Positions 32,683 to 43,419 of a stretch of 64,000 bases of DNA are shown here, piece by piece. Source of the DNA: Brachybacterium sp. EE-P12 (GTDB taxonomy: Bacteria; Actinomycetota; Actinomycetes; Actinomycetales; Dermabacteraceae); NCBI RefSeq assembly GCF_003711805.1, contig NZ_QXCP01000009.1, positions 248,001 to 312,000 on the forward strand. Reading direction: 5' to 3'. Within the stretch, counting starts at the first letter, position 1. Every line of letters starts with the position of its first letter. The translations under genes were made by a program, and so were the position numbers. The notes beneath the pieces are model-generated. The model made no database searches. It saw nothing but the letters and a program-made list of their open reading frames with translations, and was not told the origin of the DNA.

Positions 32683-33942
32683 TCAGTCCAGGAACGGGTC
32701 CAGCCCCCACTCGGGGAAGACGCCGCGCCGCGCGGCCTGGACGGCCCGGTCCAGCGGGTCCTCGGGGTCGTAGCCCTCCTCCCAGTCCCGCACCGCCAGG
32801 GGCCGGTCGTCCCCGAAGCGGACGATCGCCGGATCCGGGGAGAGGCCGTGCTCGGTGCGGGCCCGCTCGGCCGCGGCGAGGAAGTCCCGCGGCAGCGGGG
32901 CGGCGGGGTCGATCGGGGCGCCGGTCGCGACAGCGAGCAGATGCGTCCAGGAGCGCGGGACCACGTCGATCACCGCGTACCCGCCGCCGCCGAGGGCGAG
33001 CCAGCGCCCCTCGCAGACCTCGTCGGCCAGCTGCCGCATCAGCATCATCACCTCGCGCTGCGCCTCGAGGGTGACGGTGAAGTCGGCCAGCGGGTCGCTG
33101 CGATGGGTGTCGGCGCCGTGCTGGGTGACCAGGAGCGTGGGCCGCACCGCCCGGACCAGGGCGGGGACGGTCGCGCGGATCGCCCGCACCCAGCCGTCGG
33201 CCGTGGTCCTCGGCGGCAGCGGCACGTTGATCGCGGTGCCGGGGGCGGCGGGCCCGCCGGTGTCCTGCACGAATCCGGTGCCGGGGAAGAGCCGCTCCCC
33301 CGTCTCGTGGATCGAGAGGGTCACGGCGCGGGGCTCGTCCCACAGCGCCCGCTCGACGCCGTCGCCGTGGTGGACGTCGACGTCGACGTACATCACGCGC
33401 TCCTCGCCGCGCTCGAGGGCGCGGCGCACCGCGAGCGCGGCGTCGTTGTAGACGCAGAAGCCGGAGGCGCTGGCGGGCTTGGCGTGGTGGAGGCCGCCGG
33501 CGATGTTGACCGCGCGCCGCACCCGGGCGTCGAGGATCGCGTCGACCGCGGCGAGGGAGCCGCCGGCGATGCGGGCGGAGGCGGTGTGCATCCCGGGGAA
33601 GGGCGGGACGTCGTCGCCGCCGATGCCGAAGGAGATCAGCTCGTCGAGGTCCTCCGCGCTCAGCCCCTCGAAGCCGGCCGAGGCCCGGCGCACCGCCGCG
33701 ATGTAGTCGCCGTCGTGGACGGTGCCGAGCTCCGCATCGCTCGCGACGGGGGCGGGCAGGATCTGCACGCCCTCGCGGTCCAGGACCCCGGCGGCGCCGG
33801 CGAGCGAGCGGGTCAGCGACAGCCGGATCGGGGCCATCGGGTGGAAGGGACCGAAGTCGTACTCGGGCAGGACGTCGTCCCACACGATCCCGATACCGTC
33901 GGGGGCGGGGACGGGCTGCGGGGAGGGCGCGTCGGCGAGCAT
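32683..33942 (-). CDS. AcuC-like acetoin utilization / histone-deacetylase-family protein
   Basis: 419 residues of the arginase/deacetylase fold. Zn-dependent deacetylase motifs are present: LHHAKPASASGFCVYND, the active-site DVDVHHGDGVERALW, SIHETGERLFPGTG and the C-terminal LALGGGGYAVIDVVPR. Bacterial AcuC deacetylates acetyl-CoA synthetase; whether this one does is unknown as no acs gene is in view. TACGCT 7 nt before ATG marks a leaderless start. Divergent from trkH. Confidence 0.9.
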   Translation of the reverse strand: MLADAPSPQPVPAPDGIGIVWDDVLPEYDFGPFHPMAPIRLSLTRSLAGAAGVLDREGVQILPAPVASDAELGTVHDGDYIAAVRRASAGFEGLSAEDLDELISFGIGGDDVPPFPGMHTASARIAGGSLAAVDAILDARVRRAVNIAGGLHHAKPASASGFCVYNDAALAVRRALERGEERVMYVDVDVHHGDGVERALWDEPRAVTLSIHETGERLFPGTGFVQDTGGPAAPGTAINVPLPPRTTADGWVRAIRATVPALVRAVRPTLLVTQHGADTHRSDPLADFTVTLEAQREVMMLMRQLADEVCEGRWLALGGGGYAVIDVVPRSWTHLLAVATGAPIDPAAPLPRDFLAAAERARTEHGLSPDPAIVRFGDDRPLAVRDWEEGYDPEDPLDRAVQAARRGVFPEWGLDPFLD

Positions 33943-33949
33943 GACGTGA

Positions 33950-33955
33950 AGCGTA
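33950..33955 (-). promoter_or_regulatory. leaderless -10 (TACGCT) for acuC-like gene
   Basis: TACGCT on the minus strand, 7 nt, then ATG. Confidence 0.55.
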
Positions 33956-34038
33956 CCCAGCCGCGCCGCCGAGCGAGGCACGTCGCAGCTCGACCCGAGG
34001 GGCGAGCGCCGCCCGGCCCGAGGCCGCGCGGCCGGGTC

Positions 34039-34044
34039 TAGACT
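34039..34044 (+). promoter_or_regulatory. -10 element for trkH-like gene
   Basis: TAGACT about 44 nt before the ATG; the gene has a GAGGGAAG ribosome site. Confidence 0.45.
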
Positions 34045-34087
34045 GCCGCGGACGCGACCGCCGGTCGCCACGAGCACGAGGGAAGCG

Positions 34088-35503
34088 ATGAGCGAACGGA
34101 GGATCCGGCCCACGCCGAGGCGCCTGACGGGCTCCGTCCCGCGGGCCCGCCGCCCGGGCTGGCGCGATCACGTCAGGTCGCTCGCGAAGGCGACCCCGGC
34201 CCGGCTCGCTCTGGGCGTGTTCACGCTGCTGATCGGGCTGTTCACGGCGCTGCTGGCGCTGCCGGTCTCCTCCGCCGACGGGCAGGGCACCGCGCTGATC
34301 GACGCGCTGTTCACCGCGGTCTCCGCGATCTGCGTGACGGGTCTGTCCACGGTCGAGACCGGCACGCACTGGTCGACCTTCGGGCTGACGGTGATCATGG
34401 TCGCGGTGAAGCTCGGCGGTCTGGGGCTGATGACCGTCGCCTCGCTGCTGAGCATGTCGGTGATGCACCGCCTCGGGCTCGCCCAGCGGGTGATCACCGC
34501 GCAGGAGACCCGGGCCGAGCGGCTCGCCGAGGTGGGCGGGGTGCTGCGGGTCATCCTCATCACCTCCACCGCCTTCGAGGCGGCGACCTTCGTGGCCCTG
34601 ACCCCGTACATGGTGATCACCGAGCACGGCGTGGGCCGCTCGCTGTTCCTGGGGCTGTTCTACGCGATCAGCGCCTTCAACAACGCCGGCTTCGTGCCCG
34701 AGCCCGCCGGGACCGAGCAGTACCTCGGCGACCCGTTCTTCACCGTCCCGATCGGGCTCGCGGTGCTGGTGGGATCCCTCGGCTTCCCGGTGATCCTGGT
34801 GGTGGTGCGGAAGCTGCGCGCGCCGCGGCGGTGGAGCGTGCACGCGAAGCTGACCCTGACCACGACGGCGCTGCTGCTGGTGGTGGCGTTCGCGGGGTTC
34901 CTCGCGATGGAGTGGTCGAACCCCGCGACCCTGGGCGGCCAGAGCTCGGGCACGAAGCTGCTCGCCGGCGGATTCGCCGCGATCATGCCCCGCTCCGGCG
35001 GGTTCTCACAGCTGGACGTGGGGCAGCTGACCGCCGAGTCGCGCCTGCTGACGGACCTGCTGATGTTCATCGGCGGCGGCTCCGGCTCCACCGCCGGCGG
35101 GATCCGGGTGACCACCTTCGCGCTGCTGATGCTGTCGATCTGGGCGGAGGTGCGCGGCAACCCGGACGTGGAGGTGTTCGGGCGCCGCATCCCCCACGAG
35201 ACGATCCGGCAGGCGATCGGCGTGCTGGTGATGAGCGCGACGATCGTGTTCGCGGCGACCTTCGTGCTGCTGCGCATGACCCCGTACTCGCTGGACCAGG
35301 TGCTCTTCGAGGCCCTGTCCGCCTTCGGCACGGTGGGGCTGAGCACGGGGATCACGCCGCTGCTGCCCCCGGAGGCCAAGGCCGTGCTCGCGCTGTGCAT
35401 GTACGTGGGGCGCCTGGGGCCGATGACGCTCGGCGCCGCGCTCGCGGTCCGCTCCCGGGTGCGGATGATCCAGTACCCCGAGGAGCGCCCGATCGTGGGC
35501 TGA
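34088..35503 (+). CDS. TrkH/KtrB-family potassium transporter subunit
   Basis: 471 residues with the four-fold MPM repeat. The four selectivity-filter turns are seen as AICVTGLSTVE, AFNNAGFVPEP, GSGSTAGGIRVTT and AFGTVGLSTGI, each with the key glycine. About eight to ten transmembrane segments, no cytosolic domain. Works with the TrkA/KtrA protein encoded 117 nt downstream. The length and single-RCK partner fit the Ktr type better than E. coli TrkH, but naming is open. Confidence 0.93.
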   Translation: MSERRIRPTPRRLTGSVPRARRPGWRDHVRSLAKATPARLALGVFTLLIGLFTALLALPVSSADGQGTALIDALFTAVSAICVTGLSTVETGTHWSTFGLTVIMVAVKLGGLGLMTVASLLSMSVMHRLGLAQRVITAQETRAERLAEVGGVLRVILITSTAFEAATFVALTPYMVITEHGVGRSLFLGLFYAISAFNNAGFVPEPAGTEQYLGDPFFTVPIGLAVLVGSLGFPVILVVVRKLRAPRRWSVHAKLTLTTTALLLVVAFAGFLAMEWSNPATLGGQSSGTKLLAGGFAAIMPRSGGFSQLDVGQLTAESRLLTDLLMFIGGGSGSTAGGIRVTTFALLMLSIWAEVRGNPDVEVFGRRIPHETIRQAIGVLVMSATIVFAATFVLLRMTPYSLDQVLFEALSAFGTVGLSTGITPLLPPEAKAVLALCMYVGRLGPMTLGAALAVRSRVRMIQYPEERPIVG

Positions 35504-35620: not shown

Positions 35621-36286
35621 ATGCCCCGCACCGTCCGTGACGAGGGAGTGCTCGTGATCGGCCTGGGCCGCTTCGGCGCCGCGATCGCCCTGACCCTCGA
35701 GAAGCTCGGCACGCAGGTCCTCGCGATCGACACCGACGCGGAGCTCGTGCAGAAGTACTCCGGCCAGCTCACCCACGTGGTGCGCGCCGACGCCACCCAG
35801 CCCGAGGTGCTCGAGCAGGTCGGCGCCGGGGACTTCCGCATCGCCGTGGTGGGGGTGGGCACCTCGATCGAGTCCAGCGTGCTCATCTCGACGAACCTCG
35901 TCGACCTCGGCAAGCCCGTGATCTGGGCGAAGGCGATCTCCTCCGCGCACGGCCGGATCCTGCAGCGCATCGGCGCCCACCACGTGGTCTATCCCGAGGC
36001 GGATGCCGGCAAGCGCGTCGCGCACCTGGTCAACGGGCGGCTGCTGGACTTCATCGAGTTCGACGACGACTTCGCCATCGTGAAGATGCGCGCCCCGCGC
36101 GAGGTCGAGGGCAAGACCCTGGCCGAGGCCGACATCCGCCAGCGCTTCGGCGTCACCGTCGTGGGGGTGAAGACCCCCGGCAAGGACTTCACCTACGCGG
36201 TGCCGGAGACGGTGGTCGCCGCGCACGACCTGCTGATCGTCTCCGGCCGCACCGGCCTGATCGAGAAGTTCTCCCAGCGCGCCTGA
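35621..36286 (+). CDS. TrkA/KtrA-family potassium regulator (RCK domain)
   Basis: 221 residues. N-terminal RCK/Rossmann domain with GLGRFGAAIALTLEKLG (~10-26), nucleotide-binding Asp in LAIDTDAELVQ, and HVVRADATQPEVL; C-terminal TrkA-C domain from about residue 140 (VKMRAPREVEGKTLAEADI). One RCK unit, as in KtrA/CeoB, versus two in E. coli TrkA. AAGGAG ribosome site. Gates the TrkH-like channel in response to nucleotide binding. Confidence 0.93.
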   Translation: MPRTVRDEGVLVIGLGRFGAAIALTLEKLGTQVLAIDTDAELVQKYSGQLTHVVRADATQPEVLEQVGAGDFRIAVVGVGTSIESSVLISTNLVDLGKPVIWAKAISSAHGRILQRIGAHHVVYPEADAGKRVAHLVNGRLLDFIEFDDDFAIVKMRAPREVEGKTLAEADIRQRFGVTVVGVKTPGKDFTYAVPETVVAAHDLLIVSGRTGLIEKFSQRA

Positions 36287-36301
36287 AGGGCATGCGGCGT
36301 C

Positions 36302-36386
36302 GGGCCGGGCGCGGGTGGGGGCGGCACCGGAACGGGACGGGCGCGGGAGCGGGCCGGGCACCGGAACGGGCCGGGCGCGGGTGGGG
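36302..36386. repeat. G+C-rich direct repeats downstream of trkA
   Basis: The 19-bp sequence GGGCCGGGCGCGGGTGGGG occurs at 36302-36320 and 36368-36386; between them GGCACCGGAACGGG occurs at 36323-36336 and 36357-36370. No ORF with support. It leads directly into the long palindrome. Confidence 0.85.
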
Positions 36387-36388
36387 CG

Positions 36389-36464
36389 TGGTCATGTACT
36401 GGCTGTGGGCGTCCCACTACGGCTATATAGGCGTAGCGGGACGCCCACAGCCAGTACATGACCA
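36389..36464. repeat. 76-bp near-perfect palindrome
   Basis: An inverted repeat with no spacer. The outer arms are 27 bp and perfect (36389-36415 with 36438-36464; left arm starts TGGTCATGTACTGGCTG). Inside, CTACG pairs with CGTAG and the centre is CTATATAG. Only two position pairs fail to match (36416/36437 and 36422/36431). It lies in the 229-bp gap between the convergent trkA-like and proC genes. It could act as a bidirectional terminator, but its length and sequence resemble a repetitive-element unit more than an ordinary terminator. Confidence 0.95.
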
Positions 36465-36515
36465 TCTCCAGCGCGGGGAGGCCACCTGAGCGGGGTCGGC
36501 CGCGGCGGGGAGCGC

Positions 36516-37355
36516 TCAGCCCTTGGTCATGGCGCGGGAGGCGTCGGCCGCGGCGGCCATCGCGGCCGCGACGCCGGAGCGGACGCCCTCGCGCTCGAGG
36601 GCGGCGAGGCCCTGGACGGTGGTGCCGCCGGGGCTGGAGACGCCGTTCTTCGCGACCGCGGGGTGCATGCCGCTCTCGGCGAGCATCGTCGCCGCACCCC
36701 GCACCGTCTGCTGGACGAGGGCGGCGGCGAGGTCGCGCTTCAGCCCCAGGCGCACGGCCTCGTCGGTCATCGCCTCGATGATCGCGAAGACGAAGGCCGA
36801 CAGCGACCCGGCCGCGCCGATGAAGGCGTGGACCTGCTCCTCGGTGATGTCCACGGCCACCCCGGCGCGGGAGAACAGGGCGTGCAGCAGCTCGTGCTGG
36901 GCATCGGCGACGGCGTCGCCGCGCATGAGGCCGACGGCCCCCTCCCCCACCGAGATCGGTGTGTTCGGCATGGCCCGGGCCGCCGCGGTGCCGGGCGGCA
37001 GTGCCTCTTCGAGCTGCGCGAGGGTGATGCCGGCGGCGAGGGAGAGCACGACCGCGCCCTCGGGGAGGTCGTCCCGCAGCTCGGCGGCGAGGTCGAGGAT
37101 CTGGTACGGCTTCACGCCGAGCACGACGACGTCGGCGTCCCGCACGGCCTCGGCGCGGGAAGCGGCGGCGATCGCGCCGAGCTCGCTCGCAGCGCGCTCG
37201 CTGCTCTCCGGGCTCGAGTTCACGACCTGCAGGTTCTCGGGCCGCACGCCCGCGTCGAGCATGGTGCGGCCGACGGGCCCACCCATGTTCCCGGCGCCGA
37301 TGAGGGCGATGCGGACGGCGGAGAGGTCGATGGTCCCGGTGCTCGTGTCAGTCAT
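36516..37355 (-). CDS. proC: pyrroline-5-carboxylate reductase
   Basis: Last step of proline synthesis, NAD(P)H dependent. 279 residues. Rossmann motif ALIGAGNMGGPVGRTML (~15-31), VVLGVKPYQI, the loop RAMPNTPISVGEGAVGLMRG and the C-terminal signature GAATMLAESGMHPAVAKNGVSSPGGTT are complete. TACGCT 6 nt before the ATG indicates leaderless translation. Stands alone between the palindrome and a DUF368 gene on the same strand. Confidence 0.96.
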   Translation of the reverse strand: MTDTSTGTIDLSAVRIALIGAGNMGGPVGRTMLDAGVRPENLQVVNSSPESSERAASELGAIAAASRAEAVRDADVVVLGVKPYQILDLAAELRDDLPEGAVVLSLAAGITLAQLEEALPPGTAAARAMPNTPISVGEGAVGLMRGDAVADAQHELLHALFSRAGVAVDITEEQVHAFIGAAGSLSAFVFAIIEAMTDEAVRLGLKRDLAAALVQQTVRGAATMLAESGMHPAVAKNGVSSPGGTTVQGLAALEREGVRSGVAAAMAAAADASRAMTKG

Positions 37356-37361
37356 CCCGCC

Positions 37362-37367
37362 AGCGTA
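37362..37367 (-). promoter_or_regulatory. leaderless -10 (TACGCT) for proC
   Basis: TACGCT on the minus strand, 6 nt, then ATG. Confidence 0.55.
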
Positions 37368-37416
37368 CGGCGCCGGCGCCGGGGTCGGCACCCGTGCCCG
37401 GCGGGGAGGGCCCGAG

Positions 37417-38479: not shown

Positions 38480-38689
38480 TCAGCGGCCGCGGCCCCAGTG
38501 CGGGGGCACGTCGCCGCTGAGGCGGGCGTCGTTGGACTCGTCGGCCCCGGGCTCGGGGGCGTCCTCGGCGAGGCGGTCCGGGAGCACCTTCGGCGCCTCG
38601 CGGGAGGTCGCGGGCGCGGGACCCGAGCCGTCCTCCCACTGCATCGGCTTGCCGGTGATCGAGGAGATCACCACGCGCTTCGCGCTCAC
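38480..38689 (-). CDS. small hypothetical protein coupled to helicase-like gene, 69 aa
   Basis: Starts at a GTG that overlaps the stop of the large helicase-like gene by 4 nt. The sequence begins SAKRVVISSITGKPMQWEDG and ends NDARLSGDVPPHWGRGR; an acidic Pro/Ala linker lies between. No transmembrane segment or enzyme motif. Similar short actinobacterial proteins ending in PPHW/PPHYG exist as I remember, without known function. The overlap suggests its product is made together with, and may work with, the upstream protein. Confidence 0.75.
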   Translation of the reverse strand: MSAKRVVISSITGKPMQWEDGSGPAPATSREAPKVLPDRLAEDAPEPGADESNDARLSGDVPPHWGRGR

Positions 38690-41600
38690 TGCCGTTCCTG
38701 GTAGCGACGGATCGCGCTGGAGACGGAGACGTCCAGCAGCACCGAGCGCTGCTCGAAGCCGAGGAAGCTGCGCACCTCGGTGGCCAGGTGCTCCTCGAGC
38801 CGTGCCCGGCCGTCGGAGCAGATGTACTCGACCACCGCGTCGAAGTCGTCGCTCGAGTAGAAGCTCAGCGGGTGTCCGGCGGGGATCTGCGGGCGCGGCA
38901 GGCGGTGGCGCACGGTGCCCACGCCCGACGGGGAGTCGGAGCTCTCCTCGGCCTGGACCAGGCGCAGCGCCCGGTCCAGGGCGCGGCGGATCCGCTCGGC
39001 CTCGCCGTCGGGGTCGATGAACAGGGCCCAGGACCACACCCGCTCGGTCGCCCATCCGGCCGCCTCGAGCCGTTCGGCCCGCAGCCGGTCGCGCTCGCGC
39101 TGGCTCGGGGTGTCGACGTAGTGGGAGCCGTCGGTGTCCACGGCGAGCAGGAGCCGGCCGGGCATGTCGGGATGGCCGAGCGCCAGCTCGATCCGGTCGC
39201 CGGAGAGGCCGAAGTCCCGCTCGACCAGCAGGCCCAGGCGGCGCAGGCGATCGGCGAGGTCCTGCACGAGCGCGTCGGTCTCGAGCTCGCGCGGCGCCGG
39301 GGCCGCGTCGAGCGGCGCGGTCCCGCCCTCGGGCGCGAGCTCCTCGGAGGGCCCGTCCGCGCCATCCGGCGCGGTGTCGCCGTCTGCCGCGGTGTCGCCG
39401 TCTGGCGCAGTGTCGCCGACAGGCACGGTCTCGCCATCGGGACCGGCGCCGTCCCCGGCGTCGGTCTCGTCGGCAGGACCGGCCTCCGGGCCCGTCTCCT
39501 GCTCCGCCTCGGCGCCCTGCTCGGTCTCGGGCGCCGCATCGGCGCTGTCCGCGGAGGCGCTCGCCTTCCTCGCCAGCGCCGCCTCGATCGCGGCGTCGAG
39601 GTCCTCGTCGGAGAGGTCCTCGCCCGCCGCGTCGGCCGTCCCGGACTCCTGCCCGGTCCCAGCGGCGCTCTGCTCGGCGGCCGCGGCGAGCTCCTCCTGC
39701 TCCGGCGCGGCGGGGGCGGCGCGGGGCGCCTCGGGAAGGGGCGGGGCGACCGCCTCCTCGCTGCCGGTGAGCGCGGCGACGTGGGGGACGACGGGGACGT
39801 CGTGACCGCCCTGCAGCACCCACAGCAGGGCGCGCAGGTCGCGGGCGCCGTCGGTGCGCATGCGGGCGTGGTCGAGGTCCTGCACCCCGAGGGAGGAGAC
39901 CACGGTGGTGCGGCCGCGGGCCCGGGTGATCACGGTGGCCAGGGCCTTGCGGCCGCTCTCCTCGGACAGCGGGCCGAAGCGGTGCAGCAGCCGGCCGTGC
40001 GGGGTCTTGCCGAAGCCGACCGAGACGATGATGTCGTCGCGCAGCACCGAGGTGGCCTGCGCGGCCGGCAGCACGGTGAAGACCTCGCGGGCGCCGGGGT
40101 CGAAGTAGTCCCGCAGCGCGGGGATCACGGAGACGGTGTTCATGATCCGCTCCATGAGGCGCCGGGCGTGCTCCTCGGTGAAGGTCAGCACGGCCAGGGA
40201 GCGCTCCGGCCGGGTGCGGGCGTGCTCGATCACGAGGTCGGTGACGCGGCGCAGCTCGGCCTCGGTGCTCTCGACGTACTCCATCGACTCGGTGACGGGG
40301 CCGCGGCCGTTCTCGACGGTCACCAGGCGGTCCTGCTCGGGCGCGACGGGGCTCGGCACGGCCACGACCTCGCCCACCAGGGCGCGGCGCTGCGCGAAGG
40401 CGCGCAGCCCCTCGGTCGCGGGATGCGGATCGCGCAGGATCTCCTGGTGCGGGGCGATGCGCAGCATGTCGTCCAGGAGGCTCGGCACGGAGTCGCCGCC
40501 GTACTCGAGCACATCGCCGACGACGACGGTCTGCCGCGCCCGGACGATCGAGGGCAGCGCCGCGGCGGTGGGCAGCCGCCCGCCGTCGGCGACGATCAGC
40601 ACGTCGAAGTGGCGTCCCCGCGGGATCACCTGCGGGACGAGATACGGGGAGGCGAGCCAGGCCGGGCGCGCCGCGAAGAGGATGTCCTCGTACTTCGCGG
40701 CGAGGTCGCGGATGGACACGGTCGAGGAGCGGGCGAGCTCCGCGATCGCGGAGCGGGAGGTGTCCGGGTAGCGCTTCATGGTCGCGACCCGGGTCTCGTC
40801 GGCCGCGGCGTGCACCCGGGCGGAGGCGTCGGCGAGATAGGCGGCGTCCAGGCGGCGGAACCGCTCGGCGACCTGGGACAGGGAGGTGCCGTCGTACTGC
40901 GAGATCGTCGGCTCGGCGCCGGCGATCAGCTCGAGCACGCTGCGCCACCAGGCCAGCTCCAGCTCGGCGCCGACCTGGTCGATCGGGACGCGCCGGGCGC
41001 GGAGGTCCTCGACGAGCTCGCCGAGCCCGTCGAAGCCGAGGCGGCGCAGCAGCTCGGTGCGGCGCGGCAGGGTCTCGAGGTCGGCGCGGTCCGCGGCGAG
41101 CGCCTCGATGCGCCGCTCGAGCTCGTCGAGCTCGGTGCCGGCGAGGTCCGTGCCGGCGGGGGTGCCGTCCAGCAGCACGGCCAGCTCGTCGAGCACCTTC
41201 TGGGAGCGGGCGGCGACGCGGTGGACCGCCTCGAGGTCCTCGGGCAGCGCAGGGCGCGAGGGCGCGGCGCCTTCGACCGGGGCGGTGCGGCTGCGCCACT
41301 GGTCGGCGACGTCGCGCGCCTCGACGAGGTCGCGGTGCAGGTCCGTCGAGAGCGAGGCGGGTCGCTGCAGCGCGGCGGCGTCCTTGCGCAGGCGGCGGCG
41401 GGCGCGGAAGCCCATCTCCACGCCGCGCTCCTCGCGCCAGCGCTTGTCGGCGGTGGCGGCGACGAGATCGGGCAGCGGGGCGGAGAACACGGCCGGCTGG
41501 AAGGTGCCCAGCAGCGCCCGCACCCGGTCCAGGAGGGCGAGGCGCTCGACGAGCTGGGCGAGGGTCGCGGGCTCGGCGAGGCCGAGCTCGCCGCCGGCCC

Positions 41601-43419
41601 GGGCCGCGGCGCGGCGCAGCTGCGGGAGGATCTCGCCGCGCAGCTGGTCGATGAGCTCCTCGGCGCGGGCGGCCTGGGTGTCGCTGCTGATCGGCGCGCC
41701 GTACCAGGCGGTCTGCTCGGGGCCGGTGCTGAGCACGCCCACCTCGGCCGCCTCGCGCAGCGCCTCGGCGTAGCGCTCGCGCTCCTCGCCCACCATCTGC
41801 GCGGCGACCGAGGCGGGCAGGCGCACGCCGGTGCGGGGCGCGGGGTGCAGGCGGGTCAGGGCGGCGAGCGCGGAGATCGCGTCGTGGGCCGAGGCGTTCC
41901 ACGGCTCCTGGAGGCGGTGCATCGCCTCGACGTGGCCGACGAGGATGTCGCGGCTGGCGGCGAGCTCCTCGGGCGCGCCGTCCTCGGGGCCGAGCCCGTG
42001 GGAGCCGGCGCGGCGCAGGCTGCGCAGCAGCGAGGCGGAGGCGTTGCGCTGCAGGGACGGGTCCGGGGAGAGGTCGAAGACGAGCTCCTCGAGGCCGCGG
42101 CCGCGCGCGATCTCGACGAGCTGGGAGAGGTTGCGGCGGCGCTGGGAGACGACGAGCACGCTGCGGCCGCGGGCGTTGAGCTCCTCGGCCAGGTCGACGA
42201 CGAGGTCGAGGCCGGTGGTGCCGGGCGGGGTGGGCACGGCGAGGTCCCCGCCGGCGAGGACCCGCTCGAGCACGGCGCGATGGCCGGGGTCCACGGCGGC
42301 GACCAGCTCGTCCTCGGGCACCTCGGGGCTCGGGGCGTCGCCTGCGCCCTGCACCTCCGCGCGGGCGGTCTCGTCGCCGGCGAGCGCGGCGACGAGCGGG
42401 GAGGCGGCCCAGTCCTCGCGCGCCTCGGCGAGGTCCTCGGCGACGGAGCCGGCGGCGTCCATGAGGTTGCCGACCACGAGCGCGTGGAGGATGCGGAAGC
42501 CGGTCAGGGGCTGGCCGAGGGAGCGGAAGGCGTCCAGGACGGGGTTGGGGTCGAAGCCGTGGGCGCCGTCGGTCGTGGCCAGCAGCGCTCGGGCGTCGAC
42601 CGCGACGCCGGCCTCGCGCAGGGCACGCAGCAGGACGGGGTTGAGGTCCGCGGTCGCGTCGACCTCGAGGTCGACGTCCTCGCGGGCGTTGCCGCGCAGG
42701 CGCAGGGTCACGGGGCGCACGAGCACGGGGGCGTGGATCGGCTCTGAACCGTCCTCGGGGTACCAGATCGCCTCGCCGATGCCGAGATGGCAGGTGGTCA
42801 GGCCCACCTCCTCCGCATGCCGCTCGGCGGCCTCGCGGATCGTGCGGGCGTGGGCGCGGGCGTCGGCGAGCGCGCCGACCTCGCGCACCAGCGAGGACAG
42901 GCGGGTGGGGCCGCGCCCGGCGAGGAGCTGGGCGAGCCCGGAGGGGTGGGAGTGGGTGAGGTCCAGCACCGTGCCGCCGGCGCGGATCTGGGTGAGGAAG
43001 GAGGGGGCGGTGACGCCGCCGGTGATCTGCTGGGCCCAGCGGTCCAGGGCGTCGGCGACGCGGTCCTCGCGGCTGAGGGGGCGGTGCTCCCGGCGGATGA
43101 CGGGCATGCCGTCCTCGTCCTGCTCGGGCGCGATCCCGGCACCGACCTCGTCGTAGTGGGGGTCGAGCACGACCTCGTAGCCGCCCGTGCGGGTCGGTGC
43201 GCCGCCCTGGCCGCCGCGGTGCGGTGCGGGCTGCTGCTCGGCGGGCTGCTCCCGCGCGGCGCTCTCGGGGGCGGTCTCCGGCCGGTCGGTCGGCTCCGGG
43301 GAGGTCCCGTCCCGCTCGCCGCGACGCTCCCGGGCCAGGGCCGACAGGGCGTCGTCACGTGACGACGCCGCCTGGTCCGTGCCCTCCGGACGCTTCTTCC
43401 CGCGCAGGAAACTCCACAT
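38686..43419 (-). CDS. large SF1-helicase-like protein with degenerate ATPase motifs and nuclease-like C-terminus
   Basis: 1577 residues. About 110-300 resembles the DUF4011 N-terminal region of Upf1-like bacterial helicases (VLDLTHSHPSGLAQLLAGR, LNPVLLRALREAG). The Walker A place (~392-403) reads TPPGTTGLDLVV, lacking GK[ST]; the Walker B place (~938-948) reads FDVLIVADGGRL instead of the usual FDxVIxDEASQ; motif VI place reads VITRARGRTTVVSSLG (~1160). After an acidic repeat region (~1240-1385), residues ~1390-1475 resemble a Vsr/DUF559-like endonuclease fold (RIELALGHPDMPGR, LLAVDTDGSHY, RDRLRAERLEAAGW). Probably not an active ATPase. Function unknown; a nucleic-acid role is inference. Confidence 0.75.
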   Translation of the reverse strand: MWSFLRGKKRPEGTDQAASSRDDALSALARERRGERDGTSPEPTDRPETAPESAAREQPAEQQPAPHRGGQGGAPTRTGGYEVVLDPHYDEVGAGIAPEQDEDGMPVIRREHRPLSREDRVADALDRWAQQITGGVTAPSFLTQIRAGGTVLDLTHSHPSGLAQLLAGRGPTRLSSLVREVGALADARAHARTIREAAERHAEEVGLTTCHLGIGEAIWYPEDGSEPIHAPVLVRPVTLRLRGNAREDVDLEVDATADLNPVLLRALREAGVAVDARALLATTDGAHGFDPNPVLDAFRSLGQPLTGFRILHALVVGNLMDAAGSVAEDLAEAREDWAASPLVAALAGDETARAEVQGAGDAPSPEVPEDELVAAVDPGHRAVLERVLAGGDLAVPTPPGTTGLDLVVDLAEELNARGRSVLVVSQRRRNLSQLVEIARGRGLEELVFDLSPDPSLQRNASASLLRSLRRAGSHGLGPEDGAPEELAASRDILVGHVEAMHRLQEPWNASAHDAISALAALTRLHPAPRTGVRLPASVAAQMVGEERERYAEALREAAEVGVLSTGPEQTAWYGAPISSDTQAARAEELIDQLRGEILPQLRRAAARAGGELGLAEPATLAQLVERLALLDRVRALLGTFQPAVFSAPLPDLVAATADKRWREERGVEMGFRARRRLRKDAAALQRPASLSTDLHRDLVEARDVADQWRSRTAPVEGAAPSRPALPEDLEAVHRVAARSQKVLDELAVLLDGTPAGTDLAGTELDELERRIEALAADRADLETLPRRTELLRRLGFDGLGELVEDLRARRVPIDQVGAELELAWWRSVLELIAGAEPTISQYDGTSLSQVAERFRRLDAAYLADASARVHAAADETRVATMKRYPDTSRSAIAELARSSTVSIRDLAAKYEDILFAARPAWLASPYLVPQVIPRGRHFDVLIVADGGRLPTAAALPSIVRARQTVVVGDVLEYGGDSVPSLLDDMLRIAPHQEILRDPHPATEGLRAFAQRRALVGEVVAVPSPVAPEQDRLVTVENGRGPVTESMEYVESTEAELRRVTDLVIEHARTRPERSLAVLTFTEEHARRLMERIMNTVSVIPALRDYFDPGAREVFTVLPAAQATSVLRDDIIVSVGFGKTPHGRLLHRFGPLSEESGRKALATVITRARGRTTVVSSLGVQDLDHARMRTDGARDLRALLWVLQGGHDVPVVPHVAALTGSEEAVAPPLPEAPRAAPAAPEQEELAAAAEQSAAGTGQESGTADAAGEDLSDEDLDAAIEAALARKASASADSADAAPETEQGAEAEQETGPEAGPADETDAGDGAGPDGETVPVGDTAPDGDTAADGDTAPDGADGPSEELAPEGGTAPLDAAPAPRELETDALVQDLADRLRRLGLLVERDFGLSGDRIELALGHPDMPGRLLLAVDTDGSHYVDTPSQRERDRLRAERLEAAGWATERVWSWALFIDPDGEAERIRRALDRALRLVQAEESSDSPSGVGTVRHRLPRPQIPAGHPLSFYSSDDFDAVVEYICSDGRARLEEHLATEVRSFLGFEQRSVLLDVSVSSAIRRYQERQ
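39371..39441 (-). repeat. 18-bp coding repeats in the helicase-like gene
   Basis: Four adjacent 18-bp units (39371, 39389, 39407, 39425) encode PDGDTA-type hexapeptides in the acidic linker before the nuclease-like domain. The first two are nearly identical; the last two have drifted. Confidence 0.8.

Follow-up and report, generated by a model that had tools for sequence, protein, structure and literature searches.

Dispersed 76-bp palindromes of Brachybacterium frame the genes of a putative AbiEi-fold, EDxHD/Vsr-like endonuclease

Why does a 76-bp, almost perfect palindrome stand between two convergent genes of Brachybacterium? The window analysed here, a 64-kb stretch of the genome under study (G000; other G numbers designate comparison genomes), carries this element at 36389–36464. 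It is framed by trkA (35621–36286, + strand), a potassium uptake regulator gene (Pfam TrkA_N and TrkA_C) whose stop codon lies 102 bp ahead of it, and by proC (36516–37391, − strand), the gene of pyrroline-5-carboxylate reductase (Pfam P5CR_dimer), whose stop codon lies 51 bp past it. The element has no strand, nor have its two 38-nt half-sites, the left arm (36389–36426) and the right arm (36427–36464), the latter being 95% complementary to the former; 36 of the 38 pairs match and no spacer interrupts the centre, CTATATAG, which confirms the geometry given in a preliminary description of this DNA. The same description held that the palindrome stands out, and it indeed comes top of the 51 inverted repeats listed for the window (arms of 14 nt or more, separated by no more than 60 nt), the list from which both arms are taken. 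With the base composition of the window, at least 36 matching pairs of 38 would arise by chance with a probability of 1.3e-16 per position, about 8e-12 per 64 kb, and as single-stranded DNA the element folds at −44.5 kcal/mol (z = −13.4). The nearly identical peptide read from both strands is also real, as a mere consequence of the symmetry. No gene was called over the palindrome by the codon-model gene caller, and a coding role was rejected since the variable positions are, by eye, not codon-like. Upstream in the window, a gene at 32683–34113 (− strand) encodes a histone-deacetylase-family protein (Pfam PF00850, E 5e-78), its 5' end overlapping the start of the divergent trkH.

The element is the sole one of its kind in the 64-kb window, but not in the genome. 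For the preliminary description, a single-copy and unconserved sequence would have meant a mere terminator, and this is not what is found: BLASTN within the genome and two covariance models built from copies (R1 on 24, R2 on 80) found 39 places plus one weak match, places being counted since both strands usually match, and the trkA-proC copy is one of these 39. Nearly every listed match of the family is exactly 76 positions long. Among the 38 Brachybacterium genomes of our genus set, R1 finds matches in 23 and R2 in 28. Beyond the genus, a degenerate framework pattern, which describes 44 of the first 82 copies collected, retrieved 34 stretches from a collection of 84,980 species and no viral contig; 32 of these stretches are titled Brachybacterium or belong to one Actinomycetales MAG, and the two from unrelated phyla are taken as chance matches. 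In a sample of 248 genomes of the order, R1 matches 8, namely five Brachybacterium and G050, G172 and G186, where the matches are looped, shorter or without clear palindrome. To judge from these sequence searches, the palindrome family is specific to Brachybacterium. In G050, which belongs to another family of the order, loci L169 and L172 contain several copies of a distinct looped hairpin family of about 61–67 bp (TGGCGCAGGGTGGCCCTG...).

The 135 copies that we classified fall into subfamilies A (105 copies) and B (30); this set omits L236, which has a 6-bp insertion, and three repeats of G058 copies already included. Both subfamilies coexist in G000 (25 A and 13 B), G058 (23 and 13) and G012 (15 and 4), and the trkA-proC copy is of subfamily A in the dialect of G000, with the half-site TGGTCAnnnnnTGGCNnnnGGCGTCCCnnTACGnC. 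Copies are old and diverged, not the product of recent bursts. Seven B copies of G000 (L228, L229, L233, L234, L235, L237 and L238) are centred in a larger dispersed repeat with pairwise alignments of 116–236 bp, which fits the copying of a bigger unit. Identical 76-bp elements also occur in pairs 196–224 bp apart (G058, C1:3824664/3824888; G014, C1:1925013/1925209); as their flanks match as far as shown, they look like local tandem duplications.

In the alignment of 80 copies (two of 82, L092 and L126, were omitted), C5, G13, G14, C15 and G33 are invariant together with the mirrored C44, C63 and C64, and positions about 17–36 vary between genomes. The arms change in concert: paired cells amount to 83.4% against 66.4% after shuffling, changes on both sides are found in 30 of 36 pairs, and the covariation between arms reaches 0.460, compared with 0.180 after shuffling and no more than 0.139 after sliding, figures that are not probabilities because the copies are related. 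This covariation holds also at positions varying within one genome; templated correction from one arm to the other could be an alternative source of it. Two pairs are often unpaired, 8/69 in 42 and 28/49 in 23 of the 80 copies. Sequence dialects are particular to each genome: at orthologous junctions, the copy is nearer to the dialect of its own genome in 12 of 14 comparisons (exceptions L105 and L118_2955), drawn from nine hand-picked orthologous pairs with some copies used more than once. Four further comparisons were left out for want of reference copies; two agree, one is a tie and one (L130) disagrees.

The repeat is thus a dispersed extragenic palindrome family. According to gene calls from a home-made codon model, 131 of the 135 collected copies lie between genes, 65 of them convergent, 64 tandem and only 2 divergent, to which are added 3 inside a called frame and 1 at an edge; the remaining gaps of 90 bp or more in these loci number 20 convergent, 120 tandem and 79 divergent (divergent versus the rest, Fisher 1e-16, the copies not being independent). 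A copy lies at a median of 94 bp from a stop codon. The trkA-proC junction itself is occupied in some genomes only: R2 detects the element alongside trkA in 7 of 30 loci (G000, G004, G006, G012, G014, G024 and G058), G033 and G023 have there, by eye, a different B-like palindrome unscored by R2, and in many other loci of the genus the gap is of 20–100 bp with no palindrome scoring 9 or more. Relatives with and without palindrome align too poorly, by eye, for an insertion boundary or a target duplication to be defined at this place. None of the 30 trkA loci was found to contain the nuclease gene that we describe now.

Copies of the palindrome were found paired around some genes; the gene so framed in G058 and G014 codes for a product of about 270–310 residues. 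With the Pfam family REase_MTES_1575, the B partner of G058 barely passes the cut-off (E 1.3e-9) and two A partners fail it (E 1.3e-7 and 1.7e-5). Homologues of this nuclease exist in 35 of the 38 genomes of the genus. At 34 of 67 nuclease loci similar palindromes are found on both flanks, and the same holds for 2 of 164 control genes; the figures concern those of 69 distinct loci and of 250 sampled control genes that had enough flank, and the nuclease loci, among which are orthologues and near-identical pairs, are not independent. The other 33 loci have no matched pair at the threshold used. Upstream, a palindrome of score 12 is found at 44 of 67 nuclease loci against 23 of 164 controls; downstream, the numbers are 39 of 67 and 68 of 164, about equally common because the controls were drawn from loci fetched around elements. 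Within a locus the copy before the gene agrees with the one behind it, but across loci about 20 visibly different palindromes can be told apart by eye. A second check with R2, on 16 loci chosen for their A or B nucleases and for solo sites, comprised 11 distinct A/B-clade nuclease genes: elements stand on both sides of nine (A in G014, G004, G025 and G033, A and B in G058 and G024, B in G012) and on one side of two (A in G012 and G003). In G004, G025 and G058 the stop codon of the A gene is followed, from the very next base, by the element.

The proteins and their palindromes diverge together. Over 44 loci palindrome similarity tracks protein identity (Spearman 0.30, none of 2000 permutations as high); below 50% protein identity no pair of palindromes passes the similarity threshold, and 15 of 19 pairs do so once identity reaches 70%. 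All eight genomes with an A-clade nuclease, including one whose gene is broken, have 10 or more R1 matches, against 4 of the 30 without it (Fisher 1e-5, kinship being ignored and the threshold chosen afterwards). The broken gene is the A-type nuclease of the complete genome G058 (L212, 8763–9713), interrupted by one in-frame TGA with A palindromes persisting on both sides. G013 has A-like copies and no A-clade nuclease. In the G000 assembly, of 21 contigs, we found neither an A- nor a B-clade nuclease, although 76-bp copies of A and B number 38 there; its nuclease gene at C18:136211–137020 lies between two palindromes of another dialect, E, of which 13 further copies are found elsewhere.

Outside the genus, 23 nuclease loci out of 30 loci returned were tested, with a matched palindrome pair at one of them (G037) and a one-sided palindrome scoring at least 14 at about seven more. 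Of 72,556 plasmid records 3 contain a homologue, each of them from Tsukamurella, and of 50,697 phage records 1 does; no palindrome pair was found at two Tsukamurella loci. With nuclease homologues nearly absent from these records and no viral contig having the framework pattern, a phage or plasmid origin was rejected. The single phage record, MT839994.1 (L318), is an unannotated 4.9-kb scaffold of a fecal 'Bacteriophage sp.' with the nuclease and a B-like palindrome; it is probably bacterial chromosomal DNA because its flanking genes match the phoH-fumC-like junction of Brachybacterium discussed below. The window has a member of the same domain family as well: at 38686–43419 (− strand), 2.2 kb from the palindrome, a 1577-residue protein ends in an MTES_1575 nuclease domain (E 9.5e-18), with a weak match to DUF4011, and resembles the Hhe type of anti-phage protein. 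This proximity is probably a coincidence.

What kind of protein is bracketed? Among 53 nucleases aligned out of 69 distinct loci (12 of the 16 omitted were fragments or had a frame that was wrong or broken), E173, D200, E210, D212, H217, D226, R227, R229 and D230 are invariant in all 53, among others; E173, D200, H217 and D226 we take to be the residues of the EDxHD motif, from their order rather than from an alignment with I-Bth0305I. No solved structure matched the nuclease by sequence. In the AlphaFold2 model (mean pLDDT 92.2), the N-terminal part is predicted to be AbiEi-like: its best Foldseek match is 6y8q_A (E 3.5e-5, TM 0.36/0.47), with a middling Z of 7.1 over 158 residues, and 'AbiEi family antitoxin domain' is also the annotation of homologues. 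The predicted C-terminal domain resembles I-Bth0305I (3r3p, Z 9.6 over 95 residues), NGO0050 (Z 8.6) and Vsr (1vsr, Z 7.8), and junction-resolving enzymes are structural neighbours as well, at low Z; values of Z below 8 can reflect a chance arrangement. The model thus points to an endonuclease with an AbiEi fold and an EDxHD/Vsr-like domain, similar to homing endonucleases. Membership in a known defence system was rejected, PADLOC giving weak matches only, the best one to AbiEi (E 0.0011).

The nuclease loci are single-copy and mostly syntenic (junctions are named here from sequence likeness). A phoH-fumC-like junction holds the nuclease in 13 genomes of the genus, including G000 (L259), and in G129, of another family; it is common to the clade of B dialect and to a clade of another dialect. 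As a long-lived address of the nuclease gene, this junction displays differing palindrome dialects (L209, L259, L277 and L338). In six genomes (G004, G025, G012, G058, G014 and G024) the A nuclease has a YhgE-like gene on one side and a UDP-glucose-dehydrogenase-like gene on the other; the same junction of G003 has one A palindrome and no nuclease, and the A nuclease of G003 is found at another place. G033 has its A nuclease flanked by an ABC-transporter-like gene and YhgE; one element precedes the nuclease and two follow. The matching junction of G000 (L026) has a solo A palindrome and no nuclease; this correspondence is likely but not certain because one flanking gene is just 58% identical.

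We therefore consider it probable that the palindrome between trkA and proC is a solo subfamily-A copy of a family belonging to the genes of AbiEi-fold, EDxHD/Vsr-like endonucleases. This reading draws on the dispersal, fixed length, covariation and dialects of the copies, on the bracketing and the co-divergence of protein and palindrome, and on the occupied and solo states of junctions, all of them computed here. The nuclease genes would be single-copy loci framed by their own palindrome, with solo copies scattered in 3' intergenic DNA. A nuclease dimer would recognise the palindrome, one 38-bp half-site per subunit and probably as duplex DNA, and would nick or cut it as a homing-like target. 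Repair from another copy could then spread or homogenise the palindromes, and could also carry a palindrome-nuclease-palindrome cassette into a solo site; recombination between the two flanking palindromes would restore the solo site. By analogy, a dimer on a long dyad is the natural reading, given the dimerisation of I-Bth0305I on a target reported as nearly 60 bp long (PMC3943268) and the binding of AbiEi antitoxin to inverted repeats described in its own promoter (PMC7319586). The trkA-proC copy may currently be an orphan target because no A-type nuclease was found in the G000 assembly.

Other explanations have to be weighed. If the palindromes were bidirectional terminators or 3'-UTR hairpins kept for a role in RNA, their abundance between convergent genes at a short distance from stop codons and the high stability of the hairpin would be expected, and T is slightly raised past the element (0.135 in the first 10 nt against 0.104 in the next 50 nt). 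However, TTTT occurs within 15 nt past the element at none of 194 exits, and the transcribed strand of the 64 tandem copies has no significant excess of G.U over A.C (137 against 124, p = 0.46); thus there is no sign of conservation as an RNA hairpin. No terminator-like site was found by scan in 36200–36600 of the window, and no Rfam family reached its gathering score in the stretch, the matches being far below and mostly to generic hairpin families, so that an RNA-level function was rejected. The fixed length of 76 bp, the genome-wide dialects and the many junctions without element, among which are the palindrome-free trkA-proC gaps, also speak against it. The palindrome may stop transcription, but the bidirectional terminator advanced in the preliminary description does not account for its conservation, and we hold this explanation for highly improbable. 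Hardly better placed is a transposon-derived palindrome unrelated to the nuclease, either a REP of the RAYT type or a MITE of an ordinary insertion sequence. Coexisting subfamilies of dispersed extragenic palindromes near 3' ends and the larger repeat around seven B copies of G000 would suit it; on the other hand the Y1 transposase (Y1_Tnp, PF01797), the only transposase family searched, is found in none of the 38 genomes of the genus, 5 of 14 control genomes being positive, and the bracketing of nuclease genes on both sides does not fit. The mobile REP/MITE-like unit was nevertheless the closest of the options first proposed: the dispersed extragenic family is there, but membership in REP-RAYT is denied since the defining transposase was not found.

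Two alternatives keep the nuclease in the picture, and we regard both as unlikely though worth consideration. According to one, an AbiEi-type regulator or chromosome organiser binds the palindromes as dimer sites in an operator network, its nuclease acting elsewhere or rarely and the copies being immobile. The promoter repeats bound by AbiEi antitoxins, the palindromes upstream of nuclease genes and the old, diverged copies without recent bursts are in line with this idea; against it, the catalytic residues are invariant in all aligned proteins, copies are found on the 3' side of the nuclease genes too, and the location of most copies behind genes, so seldom between divergent ones, is odd for operators. 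In the other, to which we give slightly less credit, all is as in the homing-like reading except that the nuclease reads an extruded hairpin or cruciform, a single-strand form, and not the duplex. The near-perfect symmetry, the covariation reaching positions that vary within a genome, and the structural kinship with Vsr and, at low Z, with junction-resolving enzymes agree with it. Against it, dialects with many fixed bases suggest a reading of bases, and the pairs 8/69 and 28/49 are often unpaired. The site for a DNA-structure-binding protein evoked in the preliminary description is upheld insofar as a dedicated nuclease is indicated, but this protein more probably reads sequence, as the dialects suggest, than shape alone.

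How does this family compare with known systems? We know of no well-documented case other than REP-RAYT in which dispersed bacterial palindromes go with a nuclease of their own, encoded in single copy. ERIC elements are long imperfect palindromes in 3' intergenic DNA, a location and a build that, by description, our family shares, and we know of no nuclease dedicated to them. In open-access PMC titles and the starts of abstracts, we found no literature linking such palindromes with the present nuclease family. For REP/RAYT, an enzyme gene in single copy beside its own palindrome, several families in one genome served by separate enzymes, and co-evolution of palindrome and enzyme have been described (PMC3116915), with REPs given as 20–40 bp long (PMC3733652). 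Our family likewise consists of dispersed extragenic palindromes, though 76 bp long; the repeat stands beside a single-copy nuclease gene, and sequence families coexist in a genome and co-evolve with the enzyme. The enzyme is however unrelated, and the unit is one spacer-free palindrome instead of a pair of short REPs. The architecture is therefore of a known kind, that of REP-RAYT, in which scattered palindromes have a single-copy nuclease gene of their own, but the enzyme is different.

With the EDxHD homing endonucleases of the I-Bth0305I type, the modelled protein would share the fold of the catalytic domain, the conserved acidic and histidine residues and a long target bound by a dimer; its predicted DNA-binding part is, by contrast, an AbiEi-like module, and the putative target is a true palindrome in tens of copies. 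A given site that is occupied in one relative and empty in another is also a feature of free-standing homing endonuclease genes, but the gene lies here between two whole copies of the target, none being interrupted. With the AbiEi antitoxin of type IV toxin-antitoxin systems, the likeness is limited to the modelled N-terminal fold, matching the annotation of homologues; the nuclease domain is additional, and tens of palindromes are scattered over the genome instead of promoter repeats only. From the modelled fold and the occupied or solo junctions, homing by the palindrome-associated nuclease may be proposed. We tentatively go further, with somewhat less than even confidence: these genes could form a new selfish class, in which a nuclease of AbiEi-fold/EDxHD build uses its own palindromes as homing sites and ends up between two of them, solo copies being vacant sites or excision scars comparable to solo LTRs, and in which fast co-divergence would give each lineage and each paralogue its own dialect.

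Taken as such, the family suggests a second, unrelated bacterial counterpart of the partnership between REP repeats and their transposase. If this is true, a non-homologous system has reached the same architecture, and such a way of life would have arisen at least twice; a function would also be given to proteins labelled just 'AbiEi antitoxin domain' or 'MTES_1575/DUF559'. The naturally varied pairs of enzyme and target are material for understanding how proteins read very long palindromic sites. For Brachybacterium itself, the proposal offers a testable reason for the persistence in its chromosomes of long palindromes supposed to be unstable.
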